From assembly GCA_905160935.1 (NCBI GenBank), contig CAJHZI010000203.1, forward strand, positions 2,016,001-2,080,000: 64,000 bases of DNA. The letters run 5' to 3'. The stretch's first letter is position 1; every line of letters begins with the position of its first letter. Below are positions 23,331 to 48,389 of this stretch, piece after piece. The notes beneath the pieces are model-generated. The model saw nothing but the letters and a program-made list of their open reading frames with translations, made no database searches and was not told the origin of the DNA. Source of the stretch: Enchytraeus crypticus. Its lineage: Eukaryota; Annelida; Clitellata; Enchytraeida; Enchytraeidae. The position numbers and the translations under genes are program-made.

Positions 23331-23334
23331 ACTT

Positions 23335-24190: not shown

Positions 24191-24194
24191 CTTT

Positions 24195-24485: not shown

Positions 24486-24504
24486 ATAGTCTCAGTAACG
24501 ATGA

Positions 24505-26845: not shown

Positions 26846-26849
26846 GATC

Positions 26850-28200: not shown

Positions 28201-28443
28201 TATAATATCATTTGATTCATTAGCAGTCTCGTTCACTGATTTGTGAGTCCATGGCAGCTATAATTTACATCACCGCTCAAAGACTCTATTCTAGATTCAG
28301 AGAAACAGAGAACTATGTTTAATTCCACCATACTAAACCCTTCGAATTAGTTTATGGTCCAAGCAATGAACTATAAAGCAACATTCCAAGTATTATGCTT
28401 TGCCATAATAATAAGTAGTTAAGATTTACTTTTAGTTAAGATT

Positions 28444-28525
28444 TAAATAGATTGGGACGTCCCTGACATCATCCATGTAGGAGAAAACGGACGTTAAACC
28501 TTTATTATTATTGTTATTATTTATA
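28444..28525 (+). mobile_element. LINE-tail fragment ending (ATT)n
   Basis: GGGACGTCCCTGACATCATCC, then AGGAGAAAACGGACGTTAAAC and CTTTATTATTATTG. This is the terminus shared with 12800-12860. Confidence 0.7.
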
Positions 28526-28820
28526 TAAAGATGTTAAATCTACATGTAATCGATGGATTATTCTTAATTAAGTTTCTTGTTAGACTGCACGAAACTAGGT
28601 TGCTGATCCTACATGTGCAGAACAGTTTCAATTCTTTAATTTTTAAATCAGTCATAATAATGCATTTACATTGTACAAAATAAATATAGCAAAACGCACA
28701 AACACTTTAAGTCGTCAATTAAGATATACAGTACCCTATCCAGCTGACCACCTGTTAGAACCACCTTACTGACATGTATCATCTTGTCAGTGGCGCCTGT
28801 ATGTCTCTCTTTAGTAATGA

Positions 28821-28839
<19 letters not shown>

Positions 28840-28853
<14 letters not shown>

Positions 28854-29065
28854 GGTTTAACGTCAATTTCCTCATACCAGGATGATGTCAGGGATGTCCT
28901 CATCAAATATCACTACAAATCGATTCACCCCAAACAATCTGAAACAACATGTGCCGAGGAGAAAGAAAAAGATCCTAAACCGTGTCGGTCCGGTTTTAAA
29001 AAAACGGTCAGGCAAGATTTAACAAATATATAGTGGGAAGAGATGTGCTTTCAACCTACAACGGA
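28840..29065 (-). mobile_element. interspersed repeat family C, second copy
   Basis: (AAT)n then AAAGGTTTAACGTCAATTTCC, ACTACAAATCGATTCACCCC and TTTCAACCTACAACGGAAAG match 26535-26845 in order. It lacks the extra inverted copies seen there. Confidence 0.7.
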
Positions 29066-29324
29066 AAGTGGAAGTAGTAGAACTTGAGCGAAGATCAGGA
29101 TTTAAGTGGCGTAACAATTTTACTTTAAGGGCAACTAAAGTGGTAATTTTTTCCTACCATACGTATACCCCATTAAAAATTGTATCATAATTAATATAAT
29201 GCGACAACTTTGTCAGGTTTACCGCATGTCCTACAACAACATGACATTGTCTGAAGGTCTGTTTACGGTAATGTCTTTACCTAATTTCCAAAGACTACAT
29301 TTCAATAAATATTTACTGGTGCTT

Positions 29325-29765
29325 ACAAATACTTTTATCAACTGTCTATCTGTACCAACTCTCTCCAGTAATTCCTCATTTGTAACCTTTTGAGTCCAAC
29401 TAATACTCTCCATTCTTCTCCAAATCAACAATTCCAATGCCTCTTGTTTCCCAATAGCTTCCTTGTGGTCCATGTGTCACATCCATACAGTAGCATGTTC
29501 CAAACCAAAAGTTAAATTTATTAAGAAATATGAAGATGAGTTGAATAAGACACCTTCTAAGGGGGGGGTCTATTAAAAGAGGTCATAGAAGGTAGAATGG
29601 AAGGAAAGAGAGGCAGGAGCAGGCCGAGATTAGGTATGTTCGATGATTTAAAGATCCACTCATATGTGGAACTGAAGAGAAAAGCGGACGACAAAGAAGA
29701 GTGGAGGCGTTACATGCCATAGACCTGCCAGTAGGCAGTGCACTAAGAGAGAGACAAATAAAATA
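29325..29765 (+). mobile_element. LINE fragment with 5' inversion (twin-priming structure)
   Basis: 29516-29765 is sense: TTTATTAAGAAATATGAAG through TAGGCAGTGCACTAAGAGAGAG. 29325-29512 is the immediately preceding part of the same LINE in reverse complement; read on the minus strand it covers TTTGGTTTGGAACATGC to GACAGTTGATAAAAGTATTT. In the reference copy at 17110-17540 the two parts abut at ATAAATGTATTAAGAAAT. Confidence 0.85.
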
Positions 29766-30206
29766 ATAATTTAACAGAGTAATATTTTCAGTAATTACCA
29801 GTCTTGATCACTGAATACTACAATATTCACTAAAAGTATTGTCTCACTGACTACTGATTTATATTTATTCACATAAAACTCGGAAAATGGTTTGACAACC
29901 ATTTTCTTGTAATTTGCACCAGTGTAAGAACAATTTAATTTAAGCTCACAACTCTCAATCAAAATCATATTTAACTAGAAAGGGTAATTTCATTGAATTA
30001 TGAACAGTAACTGTAATTTAATCGCCTGAAATTCCTAATGTTCAGTAATTCTAAGCTTTTGTGGTCTAAGTAGCGCGCAGTGTATGTCCCCTGCATTCAA
30101 CACACCTGTATACCAGGCGTTTTATTATCAGAAGTTTTATAATGCCAGCGACAGGTATCGGCTAGGCAACTCAGGCAAGGCCTTCGCCTAAGCCTCACGC
30201 AGGCAC
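29766..30206. other. no gene seen
   Basis: AT-rich unique DNA. Confidence 0.5.
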
Positions 30207-30345
30207 CTGGCTGAAGCCAGTGGCGATGTCGGTAAGATATGCGACCGCGGATCAGTATTTACGGAGTTCAAATGCTGGGCTCGCCCGTCACTGGCATAGC
30301 TTTCGAGTGAGAAAACTGACGTTAACATTAGCTTTACCAGCTTAA
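30207..30345 (+). mobile_element. tRNA-derived SINE, family A, near full length
   Basis: CTGGCTGAAGCCAGTGGCGA (a hairpin and A-box region), GTCGGTAAGATATGCGACCG, GGATCAGTATTTACGGAGTTC with a slightly decayed B box, CGCCCGTCACTGGC, and the tail GAGAAAACTGACGTTAAC. Confidence 0.85.
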
Positions 30346-30554
30346 AGCTTTCCATACTGCTATGGCTTAGTGGTAAAGTTCTTGTGCCAGGTCATATTAA
30401 TCTGCGAATAACTGTTGGTGGTACTTAACATGCTATTAGCTTAGATAAAAATACCGAGATAAGAGAATATTTATATGTGCATGATGTGATACTGCAATAA
30501 ATAAAATCAATAAGAGGAACCCGCATAAACGTCTGATAATTGTGTGTGTGTATC

Positions 30555-30700
<146 letters not shown>

Positions 30701-30734
30701 CTCTGTCTCCGTATTTCTCTGCCTCTCAACTCGG

Positions 30735-31065
30735 TGTTCTTCTAAGCTGTGGTGTTACAAGTGGTACATAAGCCTATGCATACTCAGAGTCTGCTTTCGT
30801 TCCATGTAAAATGCACAACTGAGATCCGTAATCCATTCACAAGAGGCTTTGCCTATGTGGGCTGAACCGGAGCCTTATTGTCATGTTTTTCGACAGCGGA
30901 TAAATAGGTGCAGGGTTCAAATCGAGTGTTCTCCCCGTCACTGAGGTGCTACTCGAGCAGGAAACTGACGTTAAACTTGACTGCTTGGTTGAACTTTTAT
31001 ATCTTATGTAGCCTTTAATATAACTTCTGAGATGATTTCCCGTTGTCTTTCTCAGTTCTTGATTA
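30735..31065 (-). mobile_element. interspersed repeat family D relic, interrupted by a SINE
   Basis: CATACTCAGAGTCTGCTTTCG...GATCCGTAATCCATTCACAA and TTATATCTTATGTAGCC...GAGATGATTTCCCGTTGTC match 13510-13640 in order. A plus-strand SINE (30861-30983) sits between them. Confidence 0.6.
30861..30983 (+). mobile_element. tRNA-derived SINE, family A variant, nested
   Basis: GCAGGGTTCAAATCGAGTG (B box), CCCCGTCACTGAGGTGC and GAGCAGGAAACTGACGTTAAAC place it in the same variant group as 25544-25708. It splits a family D relic. Confidence 0.65.
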
Positions 31066-31289
31066 GTCGCCCATTACCATAAGTGCAGTTAACGATTGGA
31101 ATATTCTTCAGTGACCCTCATAATTGGGGAATCTGAGCGCATAGATAAGAGAAATAAGGGAATGGTTTCCTTACCTCCTCTCTCAGTGTTTTTCACATGA
31201 GTGTAAACAATAGAATGATCGACTAATATTTGAAAGATGAAATTTGTTCCCTTATTGAGAGAGAGAAAGTAAGAGCCCCATTCCCTGAG

Positions 31290-31320
31290 TGTCTACTCTC
31301 TCTCTCTCTCTCTCTCTCTG

Positions 31321-31374
<54 letters not shown>

Positions 31375-31694
31375 CTCTCTCTCTCTTCTCTCTCTGTCTC
31401 TGTCTCCTCTTCTCTGTCCCTCTCTCTCTGTCTCTCTGCCTCTCTCTCTCCCTCTCTGTCTCTTCTGTCCCTCTGTCTCTTCTCTCCTCTCTGTCTCTCT
31501 TCTCTCCCTCTCCCTCTCTCCCCCTCTCTCTCTGTCTTTGTCTCTGGCCCGCTGTCTCTCCCCTGCCCTCTCCTCCTGTCTCTGTCTCTCTCCTCCCCTC
31601 CCTCTCCACGCTCTCGCTCTGTCCCTTCTCTTCTCTCTCTCTCTGTCTCTGTCTCCTGTCTTCTCTCTCTCTCTCCTCTCTCGTCCTCTCTCTC

Positions 31695-31784
<90 letters not shown>

Positions 31785-31845
31785 TCTAGAAGATGATTGA
31801 CTCTTTCTCCTCCTCCTCTCTCTCTCTCTCTCTTTCTCTCATTCT
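31290..31845 (+). repeat. long (CT)n microsatellite
   Basis: About 550 bp of CT/CTGT repeat, interrupted near 31788-31812. Ser/Leu and Arg/Glu ORFs across it are repeat translations. Confidence 0.97.
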
Positions 31846-31849
31846 CCGT

Positions 31850-32276
31850 CTACACCAAGGGCGTAGCCAGGAGGATTTGGGGATAAATTCCCCCCAATGG
31901 GTTTCTGTAGAAACTGTACCCCCTCTTAAGCCACTTTTTATGAGTATATTGCAATATCAATAAAAATAAATCGGAAATTAAGAGCTTAGAATTTACTTTC
32001 AATAAGGCTTTATTTAAACTATTTCAGGTATCTACTGTAGTATGAATGATTTGCTGTTTTGCATGAATATATTTAACATCCATGGAATAGAAGACAAATA
32101 TCAGTTGAGAAAAGACAGATTTATGTCAACGCTGAAGACAATAAATAATATCAACTTACGCAATTTGGTTCATTGACAGTGCTCCCCACTTGAATTTATG
32201 TATTTATTCGTTGTTTTTCTCTTATGTGTTGTAATGTGCACCATGTTAGTTTGTCACTTTTGTACTGATTTGCTGC

Positions 32277-32319
<43 letters not shown>

Positions 32320-32810
32320 TAAAATGAAAAAATATTTAAATTAAAGTGAAAAATATACATTTAATTATTTTAATAGAAGACATAGAAATATTAATTTTTT
32401 CACGTATTCTTCTAGGATAGTCTCAATTTTAGCTAAGTTGTTAATCTAGCCGAAGCTTTATTTAGTTAACATAAGTCCAGCAGGGTCAGTACAGCCTCCC
32501 GTTAATAAATCAGAGTTGGTAGAAATAACGAATTGATGAGAATTCGTGAGCTTCTGTGATATTGTAGTATAAATGGAACACAACTGTATGATACAGTATG
32601 ATGCAATGTTAGCTAAAGGCTAACAGTATGGCCTTTGTCAAGAGGGGTGATATGGCAGATAAATTTTAAAGTGAAAAAGTTAATTAAATTAAACATTTTA
32701 ATTGTACAAAATGAATAACTTCCTTAGGAGGGGAGGGGATGATATGAGGCAATTTTTGCTATGGGAGATAAATTCCCCACCATTGATTTGATAGAGCTTC
32801 CATCTTTTCA
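31850..32810. other. no gene seen
   Basis: Contains a (TA)n tract at 32279-32316. A relic phrase 'aggggcgtagccaggaggatttggggataaattcccccc' type near 31857-31900 is partly echoed at 32735-32785 (GGGGATGATATGAGGC... ATAAATTCCCCACC), which suggests a decayed interspersed repeat. Confidence 0.4.
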
Positions 32811-32814
32811 TCTC

Positions 32815-33235
32815 TCTTACAATAACTCCAATAACAACAACAGTACAATTAGAGTTTCACTGTTGTCTATGACAACGCTGAATACTATGGAACTAAATCA
32901 GAGCAGAAAGTCGGTTGTAATCGGAGCGAACCAAAATTCGAATAAGCAGTAAAAGGAAGGTGCTGACGGAATAAAGACTGATCAAGAGAAGAAGAGAGGG
33001 TACGCAAAGCGGAAGGGAGAGAATTCCAGATCTGAGGAACAGTGTGCTGGAAGAAGCGTTTGGAGAGCTTACTGAGAGAAGGAATGCTAGGTCTCTCTAG
33101 AGTAAATAATTTAGAGGATCTAGTGGATGACTGCCGGGAGATATGGTGGCTCAATTGAAGTAAGTGAGACATGTAATCTGTACCAGGTGTGGTGATGGAC
33201 TTGTAAATCAGAGAAATTGTCTTGTGCAGAACACT
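32815..33235 (-). mobile_element. Jockey/CR1-like LINE 3' end, antisense (family F)
   Basis: The minus-strand reading has the typical C-terminal coding end (FFQHTVPQIWNSLP, SLDQSLFRQHL). It is followed by a tail antisense to ACAATTAGAGTTTCACTGTTG and (AAC)n. Compare 41740-42060. Confidence 0.8.
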
Positions 33236-33239
33236 TTAA

Positions 33240-33774
33240 ACCAGTGCAAGAAACTTATATGCTTTTTACGTAGAATAATTTAAATGATTATTTCGCATGA
33301 ATGTTCGAGTCCACAACGCACTATTAATTAGCCATTCACTTATATGAGAAATTATATTACAGGTCAGGTAGAGGGAATATATTGGGCAATTAATACTTCA
33401 CAGTGTGTAGGACTTGATCGACCAAAATACTGAAATCAGCGTTAGAAATACATGTAGGCCTACGTTTATGTAAAGAGAAGCGTCTGTCTTGGTGACTTGG
33501 TGTCTTGGTGACTCAAATAAAAGACTGAATTGAATAATTAGTGTCTTTCGAAACACTTCTGTACTAAATGCCATTCAAAGCAATCCTGCACTGAACGCCG
33601 AAAGGTTAAAATGGACATCTGTCTATAGTTTTTGTAAAATAAATTATTGTGTAATTTGGTTAGGCCTATCAACAAGTTCAATAACTACTTTCTTATAATA
33701 TTCAGTGTAATATTACAATACAATATAATATAATGTAATATAATTAATATAATACATTATAATAATTAATTCAT
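33240..33774. other. no gene seen
   Basis: AT-rich, with an (AATAT)n-like patch at 33715-33770 immediately before the next LINE. Confidence 0.5.
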
Positions 33775-34525
33775 TAAACCTTGGAGTCATATTTGATGCA
33801 AACCTTGACTTTAAATCCCATATCTATTCTGTTTGTCGAGTCTTTCTTTCAGATTCGTCAGATTGGGCAAATACTTCTTCCCTTACTAGAAATTCAGCCA
33901 CTATCCTTGCTAATTCTATAGTTCATTCAAAGCTCGACTACTGCATTATTACATGTATTGCCTACTTCTTCTCAATCGTTTGCAGCACGTCCAAAATTAT
34001 CTTGCATGTGTTGTTTGCAGGTCCTCTCGACTTCAATTTCGCTCTCTTTCTCTAATTCGCAGTCTTCACTGGCTCCCTGTTATCAACGCATACAATTTAA
34101 AGAAAGCTCTATTAACTTTCAAAACTCTGCGATTTAGCAAGCCTTCTTACTTATCTGAAATTATTCTTCCCTTTCGTCCCTCACTTGCACTTCGTTCCAC
34201 TGATGCCAATCTTCTCTCTGTTCCAAATATTCTCACATCATTGGACAGACGTTCTTTTGCATACGCAGTACCCACAATCTGGAACACTTTACCTGCTAAT
34301 CTTCGCTCTTGTTTTTCTCTTCCAACATTCTCTAGCAAAGCTTAAGACTTACCTTTTCCCACCTCAGACATAATCAATCTACCCTGACCATTTTTTGATC
34401 ACCGGACTGGCTTTCGTTTAGGACCTTACTTCTCCTCAGCACATATCTTTTTGAAATTGGTCTGAGTGAATTGATCTGTAGTGATGTGTGCTGTTGGAGA
34501 CGTCCCTGACATCATCCCTGGAAGT
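33775..34525 (+). pseudogene. 5'-truncated CR1/Jockey-like LINE (family E), dead
   Basis: The end of the RT thumb region is visible (LGVIFDANLDFKSHI, LANSIVHSKLDYC), then RLQHVQNYLACVVC, TGSLLSTHTI in a shifted frame, and TIWNTLPANLRSC. Frameshifts occur near 33850 and 34070 and within the C-terminus. The 3' end (ATCTGTAGTGATGTGTGCTG, GTCCCTGACATCATCCCTGG) runs straight into a GCAGT pentamer satellite. Confidence 0.8.
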
Positions 34526-35043
34526 GCAGTGCAGTGCAGTGCAGTGTAGTGTAGTGCAGTGTAGTGCAGTGCAGTGCAGTGCAGTGCAGTGCAGTGCAGT
34601 GTAGTGTAGTGCAGTGCAGTGCAGTGTAATGTAACATAATATAATATAATATAATATAATATAATATAGTATAATATAATATAACATAACATAACATAAC
34701 ATAACATAATATAATATAATATAATATAGTATAATACAAAATAATATAATATAATATAATATAATATAATATAATATAATATAATATAATATAATATAAT
34801 ATAATATAATATACTATAATATGATATAATATAATATAATATAATATAATATAATATAATATAATATAATATAATATAATATAATATAATATAATATAAT
34901 ATAATATAATATAATATAATATAATATAATATAATATAATATAATATAATATCATATAATATAATATCATATAATATCATATAATATAATATAATGTAAT
35001 GTAATGTAATGTAATGTAATATAATTATTATATTATCATATAA
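34522..35043 (+). repeat. pentamer satellites: (GCAGT)n then (AATAT)n
   Basis: About 105 bp of GCAGT/GTAGT pentamers pass through GTAAC/ATAAC steps into about 350 bp of ATAAT pentamers, with a few ATCAT variants near 34950-34980. The tract is continuous and in register, as if one pentamer mutated and spread. Confidence 0.95.
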
Positions 35044-35044
35044 T

Positions 35045-36345
35045 GTAACGGCAATTTGGATTTAAACAAAAAGTCGGATGCACTAACGCCTTGCATAATC
35101 TTAGAAAAGTTGTTAATTACTTCAATAATGGAAACACTGCAGTAAATATTGGGGTAATTGATCTGAAAAAAGCTTTTGATAAATGCAATGGTTATGGAAT
35201 TTTATGTATGTTGCAGAACAGAGGTGTAAATAAATGTGTATTAAATGTGCTAGAAAATTGGTTTTCCAAAAACTCTACAACTGTTAAATGGAAAAATTGT
35301 ATGTCTATTTTTGTGCTTCTATTATCTGGTGTTAAACAAGGAGGAGTTCTGTCACCCATGTTATTTGCGTAATTTGTGGATAATATATTGAGTGTATTAG
35401 AGCAATCTAATTTAGGATGCTTTGTTAATTATAAATGCTTTAACAGCTTCATGTATGCTGATGATTTAATTTTGATTAGTGCATCGGTTACTGATTTACA
35501 GCTTATGTTTGATATATGTGATAATGTTTTCAATGAGTTAGATTTGCCAATAAATGTGTCAAAATGCCATTGTATAAGAATAGGCCCAAGGTGTAGCTAT
35601 TCATGCTCACCTTTAAGTATTCAAGGAGTTGCAATTAATTGGGTGGAATCTATTAAATACTTAGGAGTCACTATTTGTAAGGCAAAAAATTTTAAATGCC
35701 AATGAGAAGAATCAAAAGGGAAATTTTTAGAGCTGCTAACACCATTTTAGGAAGGCTGGGAACAAAAGCATCTGAAGATGTCATTCTTAAACTGCTTGAT
35801 AGTAATGGTGTATCAGCATTGCTTTATGGCACTGCTGCTGCCACCTTGCGAGATTCAGACTTAAAGAGTATGAGTAGAGCATATGACAGTATCTTTTCGA
35901 AGATCTTTCATACGACTGACAAGGAAGTAATTATGTGGTGTCAATATTATTTTGGTTTTTGGCCTTTGAGTATCTTATATAAATACCATACATATAATTT
36001 TTTAAACAAATTAGTATTAGATGCCAAAATTATTAAAGGGATCGAATTAGATCATCCAGATTATTTAGAATTTGAAAGTTTACAAAGGAAATATAATATT
36101 TCGTTTGTTGATTCTGTTGCTAAAGTACGATTAAAATTTTGAATCTACGTTGACAAAATGCTACATATTGAATATTCTAATGAATAATTGAGTTGATTTG
36201 ATTCTGTTTGTCACTTGTAAACTACAAGGTTTGCATTGCTTAGCTGTACTTGTATGCAAAGTGTTGTTTCTTTTCGTTTATTTTTCTTTCTTTTTTCTAT
36301 ATCTTTGTTCGAAACTATCATGTATTGGTGAAATAAAGTCTATAT
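35045..36345 (+). pseudogene. non-LTR retrotransposon RT with intact YADD, recently decayed
   Basis: RT motifs run in order: GFKQKVGCTNALHNL, palm A VIDLKKAFDK, GVKQGGVLSPMLFA, palm C FMYADDLILIS, PINVSKCHCIRIG and SIKYLGVTI, then a C-terminal region to 36142. Only two breaks were found: a TAA at 35370-35372 and a frameshift near 35697. The 5' end is missing; it starts inside RT. The 3' end is GGTGAAATAAAGTCTATATAAT, running into ATAAT repeats. It differs clearly from the LINEs at 15.6 and 33.8 kb. Confidence 0.87.
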
Positions 36346-36635
36346 AATATAATATAATATAATGCAATGTAATATAATATAATGTAATGTAATGTAATGT
36401 AATATAATTTAATTATATATAATATATGTAATATAATATAATATAATATAATATAATATAATATAATATAATATAATATAATATAATATAATATAATATA
36501 ATATATTATAATATAATATAACATAGCATAACATAATATAACATAGTATTATATAGTATAACATAACATAAAATAACATAACATAACATAACTTATTATA
36601 ATAATATCATATCATATATCATATTATATTATATC
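36340..36635 (+). repeat. (ATAAT)n pentamer satellite on LINE 3' end
   Basis: About 200 bp of ATAAT with ATAAC and ATGTA variants start exactly at the 3' end of the preceding LINE. Confidence 0.93.
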
Positions 36636-36639
36636 TCTT

Positions 36640-36735
36640 TCGTATTGTTATTTGTATGACTATATGCATGTTCCTATTGTTTGTACAATCTGTGCTGTGA
36701 TTAACAAATAAACGATATTAAATATAAAATATATA
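36640..36735 (+). mobile_element. short LINE 3'-end fragment
   Basis: TGCATGTTCCTATTGTTTGTAC, CTGTGCTGTGATTAACAAATAAACG then a simple repeat. This has the design of a LINE 3'UTR with AATAAA and a tandem-repeat tail, sandwiched between two satellites. Confidence 0.5.
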
Positions 36736-37120
36736 ATATCATATAATATCATATAATATCATATAATATCATATAATATCATATAATACCATATAATATC
36801 ATATAATATCATATAATATCATATAATATCATATAATATCATATAATATCATATAATATCATATAATATCATATAATATCATATAATATCATATAATATC
36901 ATATAATATCATATAATATCATATAATATCATATAATATCATATAATATCATATATCATATAATATCATATAATATCTTTTAATATTATATTATATAATA
37001 TATTATATTATAATGTAATATAATGCAATACAATACAATAAAATACAATACAATACGATACAATACAATACAATACAATACGATACAATACAATACAATA
37101 CAATATACAATATTATGTCT
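36736..37120 (+). repeat. decamer (ATAATATCAT)n and pentamer (CAATA)n satellites
   Basis: About 23 near-perfect decamers (36738-36980) are followed by ATATT-rich sequence and about 90 bp of CAATA/CGATA pentamers (37020-37105). Confidence 0.95.
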
Positions 37121-37685
37121 ACCAGATAATAAATAATATGATATGATATTATTGTCTGGTATTATACTACTCGCCAGTGGTATTGCTGATGAATCAGTTG
37201 TGTGCAGTTGCGTACTGTTGTGTACACAACATCTAGATATATTGCGTTAAGTTGACCTATCAATTATGAGATTGTTATCTACGTAATTGCATGTCTAGCT
37301 GCAGTATTGGTTACTGTAGCTTAACTGAAGAGTTAGTTACAGTTTTAATCGAGTCTGCATGTTGGACGTTGTATTACAGGTTCTATGAATCATCGCTAAC
37401 TTAGTTAACTTAGCACTAAGCACTAAGTATAACATCTTTTGTTTTTATACTAACGTTATGAAAGTTACATATAGGTTTAAACAGGACTTGTTTCGAACAT
37501 TTTTTTGTAATGTGATGATCATTCGATGTTCGGAATTAACCTGTTGCGACTTTTATTGTGTGAAATCTATAATAAACTTGAAGTAGCGAATACTCTAGAA
37601 GATATAAAGTACATCAATAATCGCTTGGTTCTGATATGAAGATTTCGATAGATATTTCAATATTCGATATTTGAAATTAAGTTCT
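37121..37685. other. no gene seen
   Basis: Unique sequence. Any upstream exon of the CARD gene would have to lie here or further left, but no confident candidate was found. Confidence 0.4.
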
Positions 37686-37689
37686 CCGC

Positions 37690-38037
37690 ATTGTGTCCGG
37701 ATCGCTGAAGAATAGACCAACATTGGACTGCACGTGTCGTAAAAGGTGACAAAAATCCAAACCAACGTCAGAAATGGCACTAGGACAGTGAGGGCATAGG
37801 CTCCAGAATTTGCTAAATAAATTCTAATCCCGACCCTGGCTAAACTGCGATTCTAGAGAAAAAGAAGAAGATGATTTTTCCGATATATTCTTAGAATATT
37901 CATCTGATATTCGCAATTTTTATATTTGAGTCATCGTGTTGTTTTAGGCGCCCGTTTTTGCAGGGTCTGCAAGCGACGTCCCTGACATAGCCTTATGATG
38001 AGAAACCGGACGTTAAATTCTTATTGATTGATTGATA
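37690..38037 (+). mobile_element. interspersed repeat family G and a (TGAT)n-ended tail
   Basis: 37690-37865 has GACTGCACGTGTCGTAAAAGG, TAGGCTCCAGAATTTGC and CCCGACCCTGGCTAAAC. 37970-38036 has GCGACGTCCCTGACATAGCC, GATGAGAAACCGGACGTTAAA and TTCTTATTGATTGATTGAT. Confidence 0.7.
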
Positions 38038-38269
38038 TGTCAGTAGGACGAATTCCAATTTTATCCACTCAATTTTATCCATATACTTAAGTATATGGTT
38101 TGTGAAATGTTCTAGTTTATTTGTAGTTTCTGAAGTCAATCCTGCAATATTGTTTTATAAATTTAAAATTTAAAAAAATCATTATTTCAGATACAGTTTC
38201 ATAGGCTGAATTTAGATGATATTATCAATATAATTGTTTATTTTTGGAGTTCTCGTTTACTGCCTCATC

Positions 38270-38498
38270 ATGATTGTCGACTTTTGTTTGCTACTCTGGG
38301 AGCGACTGATTTCACCCTACGTGGTAGGTCGGCTACGGGTACTACTTTGGAGCCGTGAATTGCCAGCTTTGCTTTCTGGAGAGGAAATCATTGGCACACA
38401 CAAGGATGACGATGAAAAGGAACAGGGCAATTCAGATATTGAGTCGAAGTATTCTGTGACTTTAGCCTCTCATTCAGAGTCACACCTCCACGAAACGG
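38270..38498 (+). CDS. CARD gene exon 1 (or internal exon)
   Basis: Open from ATG 38270; the donor ACGG|GTAAGT is strong and phase 1. The reading frame is open back to 38234, and TTTATTTTTGGAG could be an acceptor, so the true start is uncertain. Confidence 0.55.
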
Positions 38499-41400
38499 GT
38501 AAGTTAATGTGTAGGCTTATTTTAACACATTGAGTAAGGCATAATTGGTTTAAAACGCAGTATTGAACTTTAACAGAAGAGCAGTAAAAGATATAAAATA
38601 GACGCATGCATCAATAGATTAAGGATTTTAGCCTATTTATAATTCGAGTAATACATGTAGGCTAAATTAATAAATTGACACGAGTGGCTAGAACTCTAGC
38701 TTAGAGGGCAGGCTGAGTCAATGATTCATTAGGATTTAGATGACGGGTCTGTAGATGCTAGATTCAAATCCAATAGATTTCCCTGTTGTTTTTATCATTT
38801 CAAGAGTAAAACTTCATGATTTTGAAGTTTGACGTTTAAAGACAAATTAGCTTTAGGTCATAAAATTGTGTTAACGGAAAGCTAGTTTATAATTAGAAGG
38901 CATTGAAGCTCTACTTCGACGCATGATTGAAATATTTGGCATATTAATAGTTGCATTAATTAATCATTTAAATAAGTTAATTTAACATCAAATACAAAGA
39001 GTAGCATATATAAATATGTAACATATATAAATAATTGGAAGATATCATATTATTGTTTCTGTGGAGATATTCATTCAAGGCTATACTTCACTGATGAGTG
39101 CTCGGAGAAAATAGAGTTCGCACACGAATGCATACATGTATTTATCATATATGGACATTAACTAAGAAGCTAGAAGAGACGACAATAGATGAAGTTTTTC
39201 GGACACATTATGCGGAACAAAATCGGTGAAAAAACCGTAGTGACAGGAATAATAGATGTCAAAAGGTGCAATGGTCGACAGCGGATGACGTTTATTAAGA
39301 GTCTTAGCAAATGGATGCAGTTAACTGAAACAGAGCAACAATGAACAGAGACATACGGAGAAATATGACCATGACCGCCCAGGCTTGGAACAGACACGGC
39401 ACTTAGAGAAGAAGAACTAAAGAAGCAGTTTAATTTTCGAACTATTTTCTAATAAAGCAGTTAACTTACCATTTTAGCTATTGCTTTTATTTTTATTCCC
39501 ACTCAAAGTGAGCTTACGTGCTCAGTAAGAGCAAATAGTTGACCAAAACGTTGGTCCCTTCTCAAATGTTGAAACTCTATCAAACCTTGATGTATTTTAG
39601 TTTGGTATATACTATATAGCTCCTGAAGTGGTTTTCTATTGCCTTCCTGGTTTTACGCTGCGTTGTTTATAATGACACACGCATTTTAAGGTTTGCGTAT
39701 TCTGTAATGGATCGAACACTACGCGCACACCGTACACCGTAGATGTAAATAGTACAAACTTAAACTACAGTTTTACTTTGTTCCAGAATCAGATCAGAGG
39801 TCAAAGAACCTTGTTGAGATTTCAGATAGAGCTGCTACAGGTTATCTGAGTGACAAAGCTGAACTGGAGGCCCTTCCTCTACAACTGTCATCAGCTGATG
39901 GAGACATCGACATCGGCGTTGAAGATAGTTTTGGGAATAACCACAAATCTGGGTATAACCAAAGTAAAATTGAGGCTGATAAGGACGAAGATGACACAGA
40001 GGATTTGGATGATGTCTCATCTGCCGAATCGGATTTTGAGGATGGAATGAAGGGAAATGACAACCATCTGGAGCGCGCTGTTGCGGAAAGCTTCCAAGAA
40101 CACCTCGGAGGTAAATTTGAAGATACGAGAGTTGAAGAGGAAGACCTAGGTGGAGAGAATAATACGAATGAATTCATCAGTCGGCCAGAATATAGTGAAT
40201 CGTCCACTGCGCCATCTGTCTTGAGCGACAAAGGTTTCTTGTTTAGTTTCTGAATAAATGTATCGTAACGAAATGGTTCTAAAATTAAACTATTAAATAG
40301 AGTTTAAAAAGATTTCTTTATTGTCTTTTAGAAATAAGTAAACCAATGCAGCCATTATTAGGTAGGTGTAAGGGTATATTTTCTTACTATGACGCGCAAG
40401 TTTCAGCTCTCCATCGATCAGCTATTTATATTTCTACTGATGGCTATCATCTGCATTTGTAGACTCTTACAAAACATATGCAGTTTTTAGTTTTTTAGTT
40501 ATGAATATAACCTGATTATCTGATTGTCCGGTTATATTCATAAGTTCAAAATATGTATTAATATCTTACACATATATAATGTAAACAGAAATTATTGAAA
40601 TGATCAACTATAGTGATGTAATACATACATACAGGCCTATGCGTTAATAATATTCCACTATATGTCAAAGAAGATTGATTAGCCAGTCAATTATTAATAG
40701 GAAATTATAAGAACATTTCTCTAATCAAATCAATTTATTGCTGACGCATACAGGTCCTCATAACAAAGAGAAGCAGAAACTAACAGGAATATGCAATGAA
40801 CAGATCGCGTGGCTGATTAAATTGATAAATTTTATTTGTATATAATTTGGAAAGTCTAACAGAGTAGGGGTAACGTCATGAAGTTTTAAATGACAGATCC
40901 TGAGGTGAATTGAACCCTCCTGGGTTCGATTCCCTGCCGTGCTGATCTGAGGGTAAAATCTCGGACATTCATAGGACTGGCTAAACGGAAAATGGACAAA
41001 ATTGCCTAACGAATTTAATATGCGGTATTAAAAAGTGATATATATCAATATAGTTGATCATTTCACTATAATGCGTGTTTAAAGTTTTCTGTCTATCTCC
41101 TCTTGGATGTCTGCTAATTTCTTGGCACTTAATTCATCTAAGATTGAATACTTGTTGGTTAGGACACCTCAACAGCTTTTGAAGCTGAATGGGAAAACTC
41201 TTTCGTTATCTTCGGGTATTAAAATATCACCTGTTTCTTGTGTGAGAAATCTCGGTGTATCCTTGATAAACACCTAACCTTCCACGAACACATAACTAAA
41301 ACTTCACAAGCATGTTTCTTCTATATCCGTGATCTTCGTCGAATACGTCCACATTTGTCACGTGAGACAGTTGCTACAATTGGTGCTGCTCTTGTGCAAT

Positions 41401-44400
41401 CGCAGTTGGACTACTGCAATTCCCTGTTTTTAAATCTCCCTGGCTGTGAGATTGATCGGTTGTAGCTGGTTCAGCATTCTCTTGCGAGAGTAAATTTTTG
41501 TTGTTCCAAGTACTCACATATTACGCCTATTTTAAAGTCTTTTCACTGGCTAAAGATTAAAGGGCGTATCATTTACAAAACAGCTTCGTTAACCTATAAG
41601 TTCATCACCATCCGTGGACAAACTTGTATGTCTCACTTGATTAAAGTGATGCAGCCTGCTGTTACTCTATCTTCTAAATTAATTACTCTTGTGAGACCTA
41701 GCTTACCTTCACGCTCTAAGCTATATAATCGTTCTTTCCAGCATGCTGCACCGCAGATCTGTAATCCTCTTCCATCCAATCTTCGGAACTCTTCATTTGA
41801 ATCACATCGGCCTTTTCTTTCCTATGCTAAGTTCCATAGGCAGTTGAAGACCTATCTTTTCCATCTCTCGTTTCCATCAAGTGTCCATGAGCAGCGACCT
41901 GCGTCTAAACCACCTTTTCTTTAATTCCCTTTACTTTGGACTAATTTTCTTGATTTTGAATTTGCACTGTTTTGGACCATTTATTTTGCTCGCCGGCTTG
42001 ATTTTGACTCAATAGTGCTCGATGTTGTCATTGATGACTGTAGCACTCTAATTGTTATTATTATTATTATTTACTTTTTACTTTTAAAGAGACGCCTATG
42101 TTTTAGATTTCAGGCGCAGTTTGGAATGGCAGCATGGACTACTGGAGCAGCTGGTGCAGAACGGGTGTCTCTCCGAGAAGAACATGAGAGATCTGGAGGA
42201 ATGTTTCCACAGCGAGGGACAGCGAGCTAATGCACTGCTTAAGTTCATTAATTCTTCAAATATCAACAAATTTGAAGAGGGATTGGTAGCATCAAATCAA
42301 ACACACCTGATGAATTTTGTTAGAAAAAATGGAAGTAAGCCAAGACGTCATTATTATTTATGATGAAATTATTTGATAATAAATAAGTAAAAAATTATTA
42401 ATAGTGTGCTTTTTATTGTTCTTAAACGAGCACATTTCTTTCGTCATATGCTTATAAAATTACAAATTGCAAAATATCTTATTGTAAACGATATTCGCAA
42501 AGTTCTTATTTTCTCTGTTACTGTTAAACCTTCTCTATTTATCAAGGCTGTTAATATTTGTTATAGTAAAGCGATTCTTTTACTATACCATTGTAGCAAC
42601 AAGGATGTTAATATTATAAAAGTATGGGTTGTTTTAGGCCTATCTACCTAGACTCGGTCTAGGGGAAAACTACTTATAAAGAACTACAACACAAGGTAGA
42701 CAGGAAAAACACTATACTCTTATTTTTCATACACTTACTCTTACACTTACTCTTAGATTTCATGCTGTATATTATTTTGGACTTTTTATAATTTGTATGT
42801 AATATTGTAGTGGCGTGTGATTCTGAAATAAACTTAAACTCTCTCATATGTTGCTTAATCGCCCGTACTCACAAAGTCACACATACAAACTTAGTCATAA
42901 TACAATACTACGAAGTGTACTTTATTATCTAAGTAGTACTTAGCTTAGAAGGGGAGAAGAGGAGTCCGAAGCGCGGGAACACAACAGCTGCTAGCTCACG
43001 AGAACCAGGAAAACAGGGAGAACCTCTCTCAAGCACCAACCGGATACGACTAAAAAAGATAAATCGTTCCGATTTACCACGATAACTATTAAGGGGCAAA
43101 GGTCGGTTTTCGAACTCAAACATAAAGCTCTTGTTTTAAGGAAAGAAAGACAACAAGAACAATCGTACAAGATAACAGTACGATTACAGTATTTACTATT
43201 GTAAAGCGATTTTTACTATACTATTGTGGTAAGAAGGATGTTAATATTTACTATAGTAAAGCGATTCTTTAACTATAGTATTGTGGTAACAGGGATGTTA
43301 ATATTTACAATGGTATAGACGATTCTTATTGAAATGGTGGGATATCTAATAAGCTCGATCAGGTGTCCGACCGCAGATCAGTAGATACGAGGTTTAAATC
43401 TTGAGTACTCTGTTACTGATATCTTTTAGAAATAATAAACTTTAGTTGATACCGTCTTTCTAAACTTCTTGAACATAATTATTTCAATCTAACTTTAACT
43501 TAACTGAAGAATAGACTAACTGACTGTTACTGCACAGTCGAAAGGAGGCGACTGAGCAAGACCTGAGGACGGCATTGAAAACCACATCAGTAGCCATTTT
43601 ATTCCCAAGCTATATGTTACATAAAACATAGTCTTTTGTAAAAAGCTGGTAAAGCTAAGGTTAACATCAGTTTCCTCACTCGAAAGCAATGTCAGTGTCG
43701 CTCGAGCCCATGATTTGAACCTCGCACATACTGATCGAGTATCCTAACGACATCACCACTGGCTCCAGCCAGTAGAGTGTGCTTATTGATCGATGATGTG
43801 CTCTTTATGCAGCGTGAAAGCAGACCTGACTCTGATGACGTACCTTGGACCTGCCAGTTGGCTGAACACTAAAGAGTGAATTTTAACTGCATTTGTTAAT
43901 TGTTGTGCAGTTAGAGACCCTCCTGACGACACTGATTGGCCAGCGAGTGACTCTGACATTGCACCCATTATAAACTTCTATCCTGAACTGGTGGAGGTGA
44001 TGGACCACAAGTGTTTAGCTGATCAACTGCTTCAGCAGAATTGTCTTAATTCTGATCAAAAAGAAATGATTTCTTTTGAAGGTATAATTAGTCGAGAAAA
44101 GAATAGAAGACTTTTGAAGATTATGTTAAGAAGAAGCGTTGGGCAGCTGGATATATTTTATCAGTGCCTGAAAACTTATCATAAAGAACTTTGGAGCAAA
44201 ATGTTTCCAAAGCAAGGTAAATGCACAGTATATCAAAGGCCATCTGCAATGCATCCTACTTTCCTCTCTTTTTCTGCCTCTCTCCCGCTCTCATCCGTTT
44301 TTTCTCTCTCTCTTTCTCTCCCTCTCTTGCACTCTCAATCTATCTATCTCTTTATATTATCATTGCTCGCATAGATGTTAATATTCCTACATGCAGTTCT

Positions 44401-45631
44401 CAGTTCCTTCCTTTATCTGACATCTTAATAGCTTTGAACTTGTCAAACGCCAAGGTCATCTTTTATCATATGCTCTTAATTCGTCAAATTTATCATTCTA
44501 GCATTGTTCTTCTACTTTGTTAGCGGTTCTAGGATAGATATTTAATCTCGCATGTTCTATGTACTCTATTTAGTAATAGGGAAAGTAATTCTTGGTGAAG
44601 TTGGTCCACTTTGCTTTCCTCAGTTTCTGCCTTAATCGCCTCTTACGTACACGCAGCAGCTGCTTGCTTGCGGCTGTCCTATTCTGATGTGATTTCAACC
44701 ACACCAGAGTACAGCACGAGGGGATTTCTAAAATTACTTTAAGTCCAGTTCTATTTTTTCACAAATAATTTTGATTTGTTATAGTTTCCAATTTTGGAAG
44801 AACTTTCTATGATTGCTGGCGCTTGCTTCTATTATTTCCAATCTGTGGCGGTGTCTGGATTTAATCAGTGGTAGCTTGGATTCAGTGAAGCTTGCAACTT
44901 TAATGAATATTGAAATTAAGAAATAAGAATAATAAAATTTAAACTTTTGTTTTCTCAACCAAGTAAGAAGTTTGTATTTGCTGATTATATTTGACCATTT
45001 CCCATTTATATTCTGCCTCTGCGAAACGTCCTAACTAGTTGTAGTAGGTTACCCTAGCCCTGACAGCCCCACATCCTATTCCTTTGCCACACTTGTCACA
45101 ATTATCCTTCAAGTAAACGTTCCTCCGTTTTCTTCATGAAGCCACACAATGATAAAAGTCACACATATTTTGCCTCTCAAGTAAACATCTGAAATTTGGC
45201 CCGATCCAGTAAAATCTCTTTACTAGAGACTCTGCTGATAAATTAGCATGTATTTGTTGTTAGGTGAGCGCCTGTTTGCGGTAGATCTTGGGGTAGAGTC
45301 TGAAAATCTAGCCTGGTGTTTGGAAGAATTCAAAGAGAAGAAGAAAGAAATCCTAGACCAAGCTTCTGCTTCTAAAGTTGATATTCGTCAAGTGTCCGGC
45401 AGAATGTACATGGTTCCTAAACCCGAGAATTTGGATGAAGGAGATTCAATCACACCTAGTAAAGAAGAGATGTTCAAGGTGGTGCAGGATTTGCAGAGAA
45501 TTATGAAAGAGTTTACTACAAGAATTGAGAGACGCGTGGCAGATTCCACGACTGTCAAAGCTGCAGCAAGTGAAAAGAAAGCTCCTGGTTTGTGGGCCTG
45601 TTTCCCTCAGTTCTTAATAAAACTTATTTAA
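38270..45631 (+). CDS. double-CARD adaptor-like gene (assembled from six exons)
   Basis: By splice consensus and phase I join 38270-38498, 39787-40233, 40332-40361, 42107-42334, 43911-44216 and 45264-45631. All five introns are phase 1, no junction makes a stop, and the protein is about 535 aa. In order: a hydrophobic/aromatic N-terminus with a half-CARD-like helix pair (LLWERLISPYVVGRLRVLL); an acidic Ser/Asp/Glu linker (about 77-225); a CARD-like helical bundle (LLEQLVQNGCLSEKNMRDLE, ANALLKFI); a second, clearer CARD (CLADQLLQQNCLNSDQKEMI, RRLLKIMLRR, FYQCLKTYHKELW); and a Lys/Glu-rich tail. CARDs pair with other CARDs in apoptotic and innate-immune complexes; that role is family knowledge and no partner is known. 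Exon 1 is in frame with an acceptor-like GGAG at 38249 (also phase 1), so a 5' exon may be missing. SINEs and LINE pieces sit in the introns. Confidence 0.68.
39150..39410 (+). mobile_element. LINE C-terminal fragment in CARD gene intron
   Basis: A conceptual reading of about 39180-39400 gives KFFGHIMRN, RCNGRQRMTFIKSL and HLEKKN, typical of the C-terminal end of RT ORFs. It is a different subfamily from 15.6-17.5 kb. No intact ORF is present. Confidence 0.6.
39787..40233 (+). CDS. CARD gene exon 2, acidic linker
   Basis: Acceptor TTTGTTCCAG|AATC. Codes for an Asp/Glu/Ser-rich region (DEDDTEDLDDVSSAESDFED). The donor CAAAG|GTTTCT is weak. Reading through it gives KGFLFSF and a stop at 40251-40253 that overlaps an AATAAA, a plausible alternative 3' end. 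Confidence 0.65.
40332..40361 (+). CDS. CARD gene 30-nt microexon
   Basis: Acceptor TTGTCTTTTAG, donor ATTAG|GTAGGT; phase 1 on both sides, adding 10 residues (about EISKPMQPLL). Skipping it also keeps frame, so it may be alternative or spurious. Confidence 0.4.
40862..41076 (+). mobile_element. tRNA-derived SINE, family B, in CARD gene intron
   Basis: TAGGGGTAACGTCATGAAG, TGGGTTCGATTCC (B box), CTGAGGGTAAAATCTCGGAC and the tail TAGTTGATCATTTCACTATAAT. The sense copy shows the family's A- and B-box order. Confidence 0.85.
41085..42075 (+). pseudogene. Jockey/CR1-like LINE 3' part (family F) in CARD gene intron
   Basis: RT-thumb and C-terminal coding segments in shifting frames: RDLRRIRPHLSRETVA, LVQSQLDYCNSLFLNLP, then FQHAAPQICNPLPSNLR. 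The 3' end CAATAGTGCTCGATGTTG...TCTAATTG runs into (TTA)n just before the acceptor of the CARD exon at 42107. Confidence 0.82.
42107..42334 (+). CDS. CARD gene exon with first CARD-like domain
   Basis: Acceptor CTATGTTTTAG, donor GGAA|GTAAGC. Its 75 full codons give amphipathic helices with the CARD pattern LL..LV..G.LSE....LE...........LL.FI. Confidence 0.75.
42335..43639. other. CARD gene intron with retroelement tails
   Basis: 42765-42840 ends GTGATTCTGAAATAAACTTAAAC, a LINE-tail type end. 43175-43320 contains three to four imperfect copies of TTAATATTTACTATAGTAAAGCGATTCTTT, an internal direct repeat that also occurs at 42545-42600. 43355-43450 is a decayed family A SINE and 43500-43600 a family D relic. 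Confidence 0.55.
43640..43772 (-). mobile_element. tRNA-derived SINE, family A, in CARD gene intron
   Basis: On the minus strand it reads CTGGCTGGAGCCAGTGGTGA, ..TCAGTATGTGCGAGGTTCAA (B box), TGACATTGCTTTCGAGTGAG, GAAACTGATGTTAACC and TTTACCAGCTTTT. Confidence 0.83.
43911..44216 (+). CDS. CARD gene exon with second CARD domain
   Basis: Acceptor TAATTGTTGTGCAG, donor AAGCAAG|GTAAAT. Contains ELVEVMDHKCLADQLLQQN and a helix-3/4 region RREK-like (SREKNRRLLKIML). This is the best CARD match in the gene. Confidence 0.8.
44217..45263. other. CARD gene intron with family D relic
   Basis: A CT-rich patch at 44260-44350 follows the donor. 44630-44720 is an antisense family D fragment (CGCCTCTTACGTACACGCAGC, CTATTCTGATGTG). 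No other gene was seen. Confidence 0.55.
45264..45631 (+). CDS. CARD gene last exon
   Basis: Acceptor TATTTGTTGTTAG in phase. A charged, coiled-coil-prone tail (LEEFKEKKKEIL, LQRIMKEFTTRIERR) with no known domain. An AATAAA at 45616-45621 lies inside the coding end, ten bases before the TAA. Confidence 0.7.
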
Positions 45632-47200
45632 TTTTTTGACTACATTTCATCGTCTTATTATTAACTTGCTATAATATTGTTACTTAAATCTGAATCAAAT
45701 GTCGGTTAAACTTATTAATTTGTTATTTATTTCATTAGCCAAATATATTTATTCTTACTTGTAAGTTATTTGTTTAAATTGTAATACCAGCAACTCAATT
45801 TTAAATGAGCAATAAGTACCATCTGCAAAGAAGTCATATATATATATTTGTGTTACCAGCGTATATTAAGCTAAATTTTAAAGGAAAATAACTCACGAAA
45901 TGTAACAATTCCCTAAATAAGGTTTATTAGAAAATTTAGTTTTTTTTCTATTATTAAGGCCATATTAATTTTCTAGTGGTATTTAACGAAATATTTTTTC
46001 AGTTATGTGTTGTCCTTAAGACGTTCTTGACGTAGCCCTCGGGTGAAGAACCGGACGTTAAATATTGATTTTATTTAGATTTTTATTGTATTGAATGTTG
46101 TTGCTAACCTTGAAAAGTTTTTAAATATTTTATAATATACGAAGACTGAGAGCTAGAAGTTTCATAGAGCTTGCCTGTTTTGTAAAATGCTTTGAAAGCG
46201 CAGTAGCTGCATGGTATGCTACCCTTCAACAAGGCACCATCTTCTGCTGTCTTTTAGGCAACAACTTTCAAATTGAATTTATTCGATTTACTTAGACTTT
46301 AGAGCTAATGATTTAAATGATATTTTCTTGTAGAATGTATACAACGTTGGCAAGTAGTAAATTAATGGACGGGCGTTCGTTTTACCTAAGTTGAAATTGT
46401 CCTGAATTTTGTATAAACACTTGAATTTCTATTATCCGATAGGAGCAATGCAGATAATTAATAAAATATAATATTTAGATAATGGAAGTCTTCATTGAGT
46501 CGTCAATGGAAGGAAAACAGGAAAAAATACAAAGCAAAGGATTTATGAAAGGTCAAGGCTGACAGAGTGCAAAATGACTAAACACTGAAGTCAATATCAA
46601 CGTCAGTTTCATCTCTCGAAAGGAGTTCACTAGTGACCAGAGAGCCCAGGATTTTTACCTTGCATATAGTGTCCCTTAGTGGGACACCTTAACTGATTGA
46701 CTCATCGACGTTTTTCTGATAGCGGGTCAGTATGTGCGGGGTTCAAATCCTAGCTCGTCCGTCACTGACATCGCTTTCGAGTGAGGAAAATGACCCTATC
46801 ATTAGCTTTACTCTCTCGTAGATAAACTGCGATAATTCAGTGAGCGAGTCATCGCTATAGTTGTTATTGACAATTTGCTTTAGTTATGACACCATACATG
46901 TTCGCTGATGGCTGGGTATAGAGCACTCCTGTCTGATCAGCGAGAGTTTGCGGCTTCATAATCCTGCCCTATCTTCTCTGACATTTTGTAAGGCAATGGA
47001 CCATTTGATTAATTTGCTGATTTGTCAATACTGTACAAAAGCTTTGATTGTCTTATTACAATTGCCAATTATAGCAGAGCTTAAAAAATACGAGATTAAA
47101 ACGTTCCTGTTAGATAAATGTTAGGCTATTTTGAAGTGTTAGAGATATTATAATTTTATATAATATTTATTATTACTAGATATACAAATTATTTTATCAT
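45632..47200. other. intergenic, SINE pair and tail fragments
   Basis: 46015-46070 is a tail fragment (GAAGAACCGGACGTTAAAT). A decayed antisense SINE A (46598-46690) and a sense SINE A (46715-46810: GCGGGTCAGTATGTGCGGGG, GTTCAAATCC) form an imperfect inverted pair. The remainder is AT-rich and unique. No BTB/BACK exon for the downstream Kelch ORF was found here. Confidence 0.6.
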
Positions 47201-47204
47201 TATT

Positions 47205-47460
47205 ATATATTTTGGTTCCTTTCGTACTACATTATGACAAAGGATAGAAAATAACCTGGCTTGCGCCGGTCTGAACTCAGCTCATGTAGAGAATTATGGG
47301 TTGAACAAACTCTCATGTTGTGACAATTTGATTCTCTAAGCCAACATCAAGGTGCCAATCCTCACCTTGGATATGAGCTCTAAGGTGAGATTAACCTGTT
47401 ATCCCTAAGGTATATTGGTCTGTGATCTATTTAGGTTCAGATTGTCCGTTTGAAGTTCAA
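47205..47460 (-). pseudogene. nuclear copy of mitochondrial large-subunit (16S) rRNA, antisense fragment
   Basis: Read on the minus strand, the conserved peptidyl-transferase and sarcin-ricin region appears in order: CCTTAGGGATAACAGGTTAA, GAGCTCATATCCAAGGTGAG, GATTGGCACCTTGATGTTGG, TTCAACCCATAATTCTCTAC, ATGAGCTGAGTTCAGACCGG and TAGTACGAAAGGAACC. The plus strand includes the binding site of the universal 16Sbr primer (CCGGTCTGAACTCAG). It is only about 250 bp, flanked by nuclear sequence, so it is a NUMT or assembly-joined mtDNA, not a working rRNA gene. The edge nearest the Kelch ORF (47420-47460) is less certain. Confidence 0.9.
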
Positions 47461-47471
47461 TTCTACTAGAT

Positions 47472-48389
47472 ATGTTTCACAAAGCCTTTATTGTAAATGT
47501 TTCAGAACGGATTCTACTAATAGTAGGGCTGGAATTTGACGGCCCAAATATGCTTCAAAAAACCTTTGAAATCAGTTTAGACCAGCCAGACAAGATCAAT
47601 GCCGTCAAATCTTCGCCATTTTCTAGCTTGCACGAGTCGGCTGCCTGTGTGATCAACAACGACTTGTACATTGTGGGTACAGGATTGTCATGCCGAGAAA
47701 TGTGGAAGTGGTCAGCTAGTAGAGACGAGTGGACGAGATGTGCGGACCTGCCATTAGGTAGACGCAGTCACAGTATTATCTCTATAGAGAACAAAATCTA
47801 CATGTTCGGAGGCTGGAAAATTGGCTATATGAAACTGCATGACAGTATTCTCTGTTATGATATCGACACAAACGTTTGGACTGAAGGAGGAAAGCTACGA
47901 CACGCTGTTATATTCGCTGCATGTGCCGCGTATGAACATTACGTGTACGTGTTTGGTGGAGCGGATAAAAGGAGGAGGGCTGTGCTCTACGTGCAAATCT
48001 ATAACACAATTACATGTGCCGTAACGACAGCATCTAAATTAGTTCCTGTGGGATTTGGTTTAATGAAAGCCGTTGTTTGGAGAAATACAGCCTTTCTTAT
48101 TGGCGTCAAAAGTTGTTTTATATTCGATTTTGAGTCGAATAAGTGGCAAGAGAGAAATAGATTCAAGACAGGTGTTGCACATTTTGGTTTAACTCTGGAT
48201 GATAGCACGCTCTACATCTCAGGAGGTGCTACACTAAGTGATCCGATGTTGACATATAGCGATGAGGTGAAGAGTTTAAGGGTTGAAGATTTCCTGTCAG
48301 ATAACAAGAAGTCAAATTGGAAACATCACGCTATTCTACCCTCTCGTGGTCTCATTGAATCCGTTAATAACGTTGCTCTGTTAAAATAA
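47472..48389 (+). CDS. Kelch-repeat protein (Kelch-only ORF, KLHL-like C-terminal half)
   Basis: The 305-aa product has about five Kelch blades: ESAACVINNDLYIVGTG, HSIISIENKIYMFGGW, ACAAYEHYVYVFGGA and LTLDDSTLYISGG, with the W..D..TNVW / DEWTRCADLP linker pattern. It would form a beta-propeller, usually a substrate-binding module of a Cul3 ubiquitin ligase. The BTB and BACK domains normally preceding it are absent. The frame is closed by a TGA at 47451-47453. Either the ATG at 47472 is the start of a Kelch-only gene, or an acceptor (TTCAATTCTACTAG, ending 47469) makes this a 3' exon entered in phase 1. The stop TAA (48387-48389) overlaps AATAAA (48385-48390). The ORF is intact over 305 codons, which argues for function. 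Confidence 0.8.
   Translation: MFHKAFIVNVSERILLIVGLEFDGPNMLQKTFEISLDQPDKINAVKSSPFSSLHESAACVINNDLYIVGTGLSCREMWKWSASRDEWTRCADLPLGRRSHSIISIENKIYMFGGWKIGYMKLHDSILCYDIDTNVWTEGGKLRHAVIFAACAAYEHYVYVFGGADKRRRAVLYVQIYNTITCAVTTASKLVPVGFGLMKAVVWRNTAFLIGVKSCFIFDFESNKWQERNRFKTGVAHFGLTLDDSTLYISGGATLSDPMLTYSDEVKSLRVEDFLSDNKKSNWKHHAILPSRGLIESVNNVALLK

Follow-up and report, generated by a model that had tools for sequence, protein, structure and literature searches.

The locus examined here raises the question of what kind of protein is encoded by a chain of small plus-strand exons in the annelid Enchytraeus crypticus, and where that chain ends. A sequence-only reading had joined six of these exons into a double-CARD adaptor with an acidic linker and a charged tail, and had placed the end of the gene at 45631. 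We followed up this reading within the window, that is, the whole 64,000-nt stretch of DNA to which all coordinates refer, and searched the genome to which it belongs, 524 Mb distributed over 802 contigs, for paralogues.

Exon chain and the end of the gene

When joined as originally called, exons 1 to 6 formed a frame of 535 residues without a stop, interrupted by five introns all in phase 1, exactly as the sequence-only reading had claimed. Each of the six exons has one, and only one, stop-free frame on the plus strand, a result that carries little weight for the 30-base exon 3. We trained a codon score on three of the window's long frames, one being the Kelch frame described below. It gave exons 1 to 6 values of +13.7, +61.0, 0.0, +19.6, +13.9, and +5.9 bits, respectively, and was negative in all other frames of both strands. 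By itself, the all-phase-1 pattern is mildly unusual, being expected in about 1 in 700 to 1 in 1400 cases if phases are independent.

The frame 47454-48389 encodes a Kelch propeller, with PF24681, PF13964, PF01344, and others over their Pfam cut-offs. Splicing position 45587 to 47506 yields a seven-exon model that remains open for 815 residues and has six introns, again all in phase 1. Because the same order of CARD1, CARD2, E6, and Kelch is found in the closest paralogue, on contig C714, the window gene very probably continues past exon 6 into the Kelch propeller, the splice itself being placed by homology. The gene end previously set at 45631 thus gives way to an exon 6 that would end at 45587, with the Kelch exon following in phase 1 (Table 1).

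Both sides of this junction have counterparts elsewhere in the genome. The acceptor of the Kelch exon lies after AG, in phase 1 and at a homologous codon in the window, C714, C366, and C583. The donor of exon 6, GCTCCTG/GTTTGTGG, is weak, and the E6 exon of C714 stops at the corresponding position, CATCCTG/GTTAGTGG. The window donor scored low on a generic splice matrix, as did the Kelch acceptors of the window and C714. The residues GLWACFPQFLIKLI that follow 45587 would be either intron or part of a short isoform. Immediately ahead of the Kelch exon, inside what would be the last intron, the minus strand of 47238-47452 matches bacterial LSU rRNA with 114 bits; this piece is probably a nuclear copy of mitochondrial DNA.

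Table 1. Exons of the proposed window gene and double-CARD loci grouped by tail
Feature	Position or locus	Strand	Description
Exon 1	38270..38498	+	possible start codon, hydrophobic segment, start of acidic linker; alternatively internal from 38250
Exon 2	39787..40233	+	acidic linker; shorter form to 40110 equally in frame
Exon 3	40332..40361	+	30 bases, uncertain; open, phase-1 symmetric, coding score 0.0
Exon 4	42107..42334	+	putative CARD1; C366 paralogue 31.0 bits with PF00619; acceptor weak (-0.3)
Exon 5	43911..44216	+	CARD2; PF00619 39.8 bits; tract 43904-44221 recently exchanged with C714
Exon 6	45264..45587	+	E6, family-specific linker domain; homologues in C714, C303, C789, C242, C256
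Exon 7	47506..48389	+	Kelch propeller and stop codon, joined by homology; Pfam Kelch, conserved phase-1 acceptor
Kelch-tailed loci	window, C714, two C366 genes		read directly
NHL-tailed loci	C242 (514 kb), C256 (273 kb), C303 (133 kb), C366 (273 kb)		read directly

We are less sure that exons 1 to 3 are part of the gene. Their homologues were not seen in any of the paralogue loci read, and the 9 kb ahead of CARD1 in C714 contain no N-terminal exon that we could recognise. Phase and coding signal are what suggest the membership of exon 1, which has a phase-1 donor and might start at the ATG at 38270 or be internal, with a weak acceptor (-0.7) at 38250. Its best 19-residue hydropathy is 1.47 when counted from the ATG and 1.94 from 38250. 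The 188 residues that run from position 38 of the chain through exon 2 contain 52 D+E against 16 K+R, so that the acidic linker described earlier is indeed present. Exon 2, in phase 1 on both sides, contains a second phase-1 donor after 40110 (GGAG/gtaaat) that is closer to the consensus than the one after 40233 (AAAG/gtttct, -2.7 on the generic matrix). Exon 3 is uncertain, having no coding signal and no independent support.

Upstream of CARD1, other loci of the family offer a weak lead. On the minus strand of C789 (352-362 kb), an acidic exon of twelve-residue repeats of the ECQVGSSEQVDE type, preceded by a CCCC cluster, lies just upstream of CARD1, and upstream of CARD1 in C242 there is a frame of hydrophobic character (hydropathy 2.79) that has a phase-1 donor. 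Because of these two cases, N-termini that are membrane-seeking, acidic or hydrophobic may be a repeated feature of the family without likeness in sequence. A conserved block upstream of CARD1 in three C366 genes has no frame that is open in all three and is thus not demonstrable as an exon.

The window has several other features. An AT-rich array in steps of 10 bases, made of TATAATATCA and its variants, occupies 36343-37116, upstream of exon 1, and reverse-transcriptase-like frames were seen by eye at 35049-36142 and 41466-41924. The stretch 41491-42061 is 90% identical to one in an intron of a C366 paralogue, and we read it as a mobile element present in both genes. On the minus strand, a frame of 1131 residues (18749-22144) appears by eye to combine leucine-rich repeats with a fibronectin-like part and a span of hydrophobic residues, and probably encodes a cell-surface LRR protein. 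A plus-strand frame of 776 residues (576-2906) shows by eye two CCCH zinc fingers and in this resembles the TTP/ZFP36 family.

The two CARDs and the E6 domain

Exon 5 scored 36.7 bits alone against PF00619 and 39.8 bits in the joined protein, the cut-off being 23.9 bits. A profile of five CARD2 members matched solved CARDs, best that of cIAP1 (E 2.4e-6), followed by NLRC4, CED-3, and CARD8. Exon 4 alone had no Pfam match at E <= 1 and so does not reach the curated cut-off directly. It matches paralogous exons in five loci with E values from 8.6e-14 to 1.5e-8. Among its paralogues, CARD1 of C366 exceeded the PF00619 cut-off, that of C789 remained under it with 18.1 bits, and that of C714 had no CARD match at E <= 0.1. 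When the CARD1 and CARD2 family profiles were compared, hhalign returned 96.5% over 52 columns. As the C366 paralogue passes the Pfam cut-off and the two profiles match, we identify exon 4 as CARD1. The earlier claim of two CARDs is therefore upheld, and the window gene is best read as carrying two genuine CARD signalling domains.

Structural comparisons of CARD1 gave fainter signals. A single-sequence model of exon 4 contains five helices (pLDDT 55), the fold sought being the six-helix death fold, and the best two of its 14 PDB matches are the CARDs of CARD8 and caspase-1, both weak (E 1.4 and 1.5). With the CARD1 profile, CARD matches in the PDB were no better than E 0.034. The top 29 PDB rows for this profile were TAL effectors; each had 0 individually significant stretches, and we took these scores as summed repeats and discarded that identity.

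What had been regarded as a charged tail at the end of the protein is instead a small recurrent domain, E6, after which the Kelch exon follows. We spotted E6-like stretches by eye in C714, C303, C789, and C242, in the last case between CARD2 and NHL. A profile built from these and the window sequence detected a further member in C256, also between CARD2 and NHL (E 1e-5); the C366 loci yielded no member at E <= 0.01. None of the five members scanned, C242 excluded, had a Pfam family over its cut-off. The single-sequence model of E6 (pLDDT 68) consists of a helix, a hairpin, and a long terminal helix of 35 residues, and it had 0 PDB matches at E <= 0.001. A likeness of E6 to a TRIM tail was rejected, since in C583 a phase-1 donor precedes the stretch concerned, which is hence probably intron.

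A gene family with Kelch or NHL tails

The paralogue on C714 carries, in order, CARD1 (51% identical to the window), CARD2 (91%), an E6-like exon, and Kelch, and each of its three internal exons has phase-1 introns at both ends. On C366, two genes in tandem carry CARD1, CARD2, and then Kelch, all on the same strand, with Kelch exons 51% and 55% identical to that of the window. In other loci the propeller is of the NHL type: the order is CARD1-CARD2-E6-NHL on C303 and C256, and CARD1-CARD2-NHL on C242 and at 273 kb of C366. The best-scoring acceptors ahead of the NHL exons were in phase 1 in all four cases read. Altogether, the tails read downstream of nine double-CARD loci were Kelch in four, NHL in four, and neither in one, a count that does not include a third gene of C366, whose CARD2 lies at 220.8 kb. 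The locus with neither tail is C789 (352 kb), where no propeller occurs within about 12 kb downstream of CARD2.

PF00619 matched the genome 87 times at E <= 1, and 66 of these matches were over the cut-off. Single-exon propellers are very abundant on contigs C256, C303, C372, C702, C789, C583, and others, with 70 matches for Kelch and at least 139 for NHL, the latter from the 138 of 348 candidates that were scored. Counts of adjacency use only those matches that lie on CARD-bearing contigs (14/70 Kelch, 44/139 NHL). In four genes, against an expectation of 0.03, a Kelch match follows CARD2 at a distance of no more than 5 kb and in the same orientation; as two of the genes are tandem, they represent three independent places. 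On C256, C303, and C789, an NHL exon lies within 13 kb downstream of 14 of the 18 CARD hits (13 without the CARD1 hit of one gene), and NHL exons are so dense on these contigs that about three such adjacencies are expected by chance. Judging from these alignments and gene orders, we consider the window gene a member of a clustered multigene family, in which a phase-1 intron links a CARD-CARD head to a propeller of the Kelch or the NHL type.

Between the window and C714, dS was 1.91 for CARD1, 1.16 for E6, and 1.23 for Kelch but only 0.19 for CARD2, which argues that the CARD2 exon has recently been exchanged between the two genes. The tract marked in Table 1, with 92% DNA identity to C714, equals the CARD2 exon plus 7 and 5 bases; conversion confined to the sole part still alike would explain why the similarity is exon-sized. 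C366 gene 1, with a Kelch tail, and the C366 273 kb gene, with an NHL tail, share 87% DNA identity over CARD1, 88% over 792 bases around CARD2, and 81% in an extra patch of 120 bases. Their tails showed no similarity at E <= 1e-5, and two short later matches were repeat-like. Thus, the earlier idea that symmetric phase-1 exons favour shuffling gains substance both from an exchange limited to CARD2 and from differing tails behind near-identical heads.

A tree built from 17 rows of CARD2 divides the four Kelch-tailed genes into two groups on starred branches (99/99), and the tail label requires at least two changes on such branches. About half of 500 label shuffles did likewise, so tail type does not track the CARD2 tree, which exchange of CARD2 exons can itself distort. 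On C583, a RING/B-box frame with the phase-1 donor CTGGAG/gtaggatg precedes a Kelch exon of the same type as in the window. This one opened gene suggests that a CARD-CARD head was joined to a TRIM-type tail, or the reverse. A KLHL origin of the Kelch exon was set aside, as C583, the sole other Kelch gene whose head was opened, has RING and B-box rather than BTB, the heads of most of the 70 Kelch matches being unseen. Tails have been exchanged between genes at phase-1 introns, and perhaps heads too. A bolder view, which we advance tentatively and rate somewhat below an even chance, is that the genome holds a modular sensor repertoire, where RING/B-box or CARD-CARD-linker heads and Kelch or NHL tails would enter recurrent new pairings through phase-1 recombination and exchange of CARD exons.

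Per domain, dN/dS ranged from 0.18 to 0.62 against C714 and from 0.36 to 0.59 between the two C366 genes. Selection is purifying on average, with no average sign of positive selection.

Proposed role and relation to known systems

We consider it fairly probable that the head, comprising a variable N-terminus, CARD1, CARD2, and E6, forms one gene with the Kelch tail, and that its product acts, most likely, as an intracellular sensor. The C-terminal Kelch propeller would bind a pathogen or host ligand, the E6 domain would help self-association, and the paired CARDs would nucleate a filament together with a CARD protein further along the pathway, such as a caspase or a BCL10-like adaptor, with cell death or signalling of the NF-kB type as the outcome. 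A membrane tether may be provided by the N-terminal segment. These sensor and immune roles are proposed from domain types. Of the double-CARD adaptor suggested earlier, the two CARDs stand, while an adaptor ending in a charged tail does not, given the Kelch propeller exon that follows.

Could the head and the propeller belong to two adjacent genes, a short double-CARD adaptor or decoy ending at 45631 and a separate Kelch gene or fragment starting from 47454? Past 45587 the frame runs on until a stop codon at 45629-45631, AATAAA lies at 45616, the E6 donor is weak, the mitochondrial-like rRNA piece intervenes, and C789 shows no propeller. However, the CARD-CARD-Kelch order recurs at C714 and C366, the phases fit at both ends, and the conserved end of E6 is at 45587; we therefore hold the two-gene arrangement to be decidedly unlikely, although the two forms could coexist as isoforms. 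It is unlikely that the gene model is right and the protein is not a sensor, with a propeller that binds host protein or RNA, as propellers do in development or the cytoskeleton, and a CARD pair serving as a constitutive scaffold or apoptosis regulator. Such a protein would agree with dN/dS values below 1 in each domain and with the habits of many known Kelch and NHL propellers, which often bind host proteins or RNA, but the many clustered copies and the exchange of tails would fit a recognition repertoire better.

A transmembrane receptor, in which exon 1 is internal and spans the membrane, exons further upstream encode an ectodomain, and the CARDs are cytoplasmic, would suit the frame open from 38250, its higher hydropathy over 19 residues, and a possible phase-1 acceptor at that position. 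Against it, a combined coding and splice scan of 22145-38249 for upstream ectodomain exons returned two weak candidates, 26453-26767 and 28881-29006, although the scan is insensitive and excludes little, as its thresholds would miss exons 1, 2, and 4 of the window gene. We regard such a receptor as highly improbable and retain the intracellular sensor encoded by a single gene.

A protein combining CARD with Kelch or NHL, in either order, was not found in a search of mainly open-access literature. The CARD-pair/propeller architecture was absent from passages of PMC5978004, PMC8998645, and PMC2575513, and a passage of PMC6208332 places CARD and Kelch in separate genes. A protein database search gave 0 of 1111 candidates at E <= 1, which we read as thin animal coverage rather than uniqueness.

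Several known systems resemble the window gene in part. The type of its Kelch exon and its phase-1 junction are shared with the RING/B-box gene on C583, a likeness to TRIM proteins, on some of which NHL tails are known. Unlike these, the window gene has a CARD pair and E6 in place of RING or B-box: neither had a Pfam match in the exons, a pattern scan of the window was empty, and among the paralogous loci examined the pattern hit only C583. A test for KLHL likeness was negative as well, with no BTB or BACK found by Pfam in the exons and a rough BTB pattern absent from the window. RIG-I-like receptors and NOD2 carry two CARDs in a row before a recognition module, and tandem CARDs likewise precede such a putative module in the window gene, where, however, it is a C-terminal Kelch propeller. 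Pfam matched neither exons 1-6 nor the Kelch frame to a helicase (DExD/H), NACHT, NB-ARC, or LRR domain.

Apaf-1 consists of a CARD, NB-ARC, and a WD40 propeller. The window gene resembles it in combining a CARD head with a beta-propeller tail, as laid out for Apaf-1 in a passage of PMC2575513. It differs in having two CARDs, no NB-ARC match, and Kelch, the tails of the family being Kelch or NHL and not WD40. To the CARD-coiled coil proteins CARD9/10/11/14 the gene is linked by weak matches of CARD2 to CARD9 and CARD11 and by the long helix that follows in the E6 model; it is set apart from them by its second CARD, its acidic N-terminal linker, and its propeller tail, and CARD2 matches the CARDs of cIAP1, NLRC4, and CED-3 better than those of CARD9 or CARD11.

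In conclusion, this genome makes shuffling traceable at intron resolution, through near-identical heads with different tails and an exon-sized exchange of CARD2. In the animal CARD sensors known so far, the core that bears the CARDs is NACHT, NB-ARC, or a helicase. A CARD pair set on Kelch or NHL propellers, via a linker domain without Pfam cover in the members scanned, would be a further way of coupling recognition to CARD signalling.
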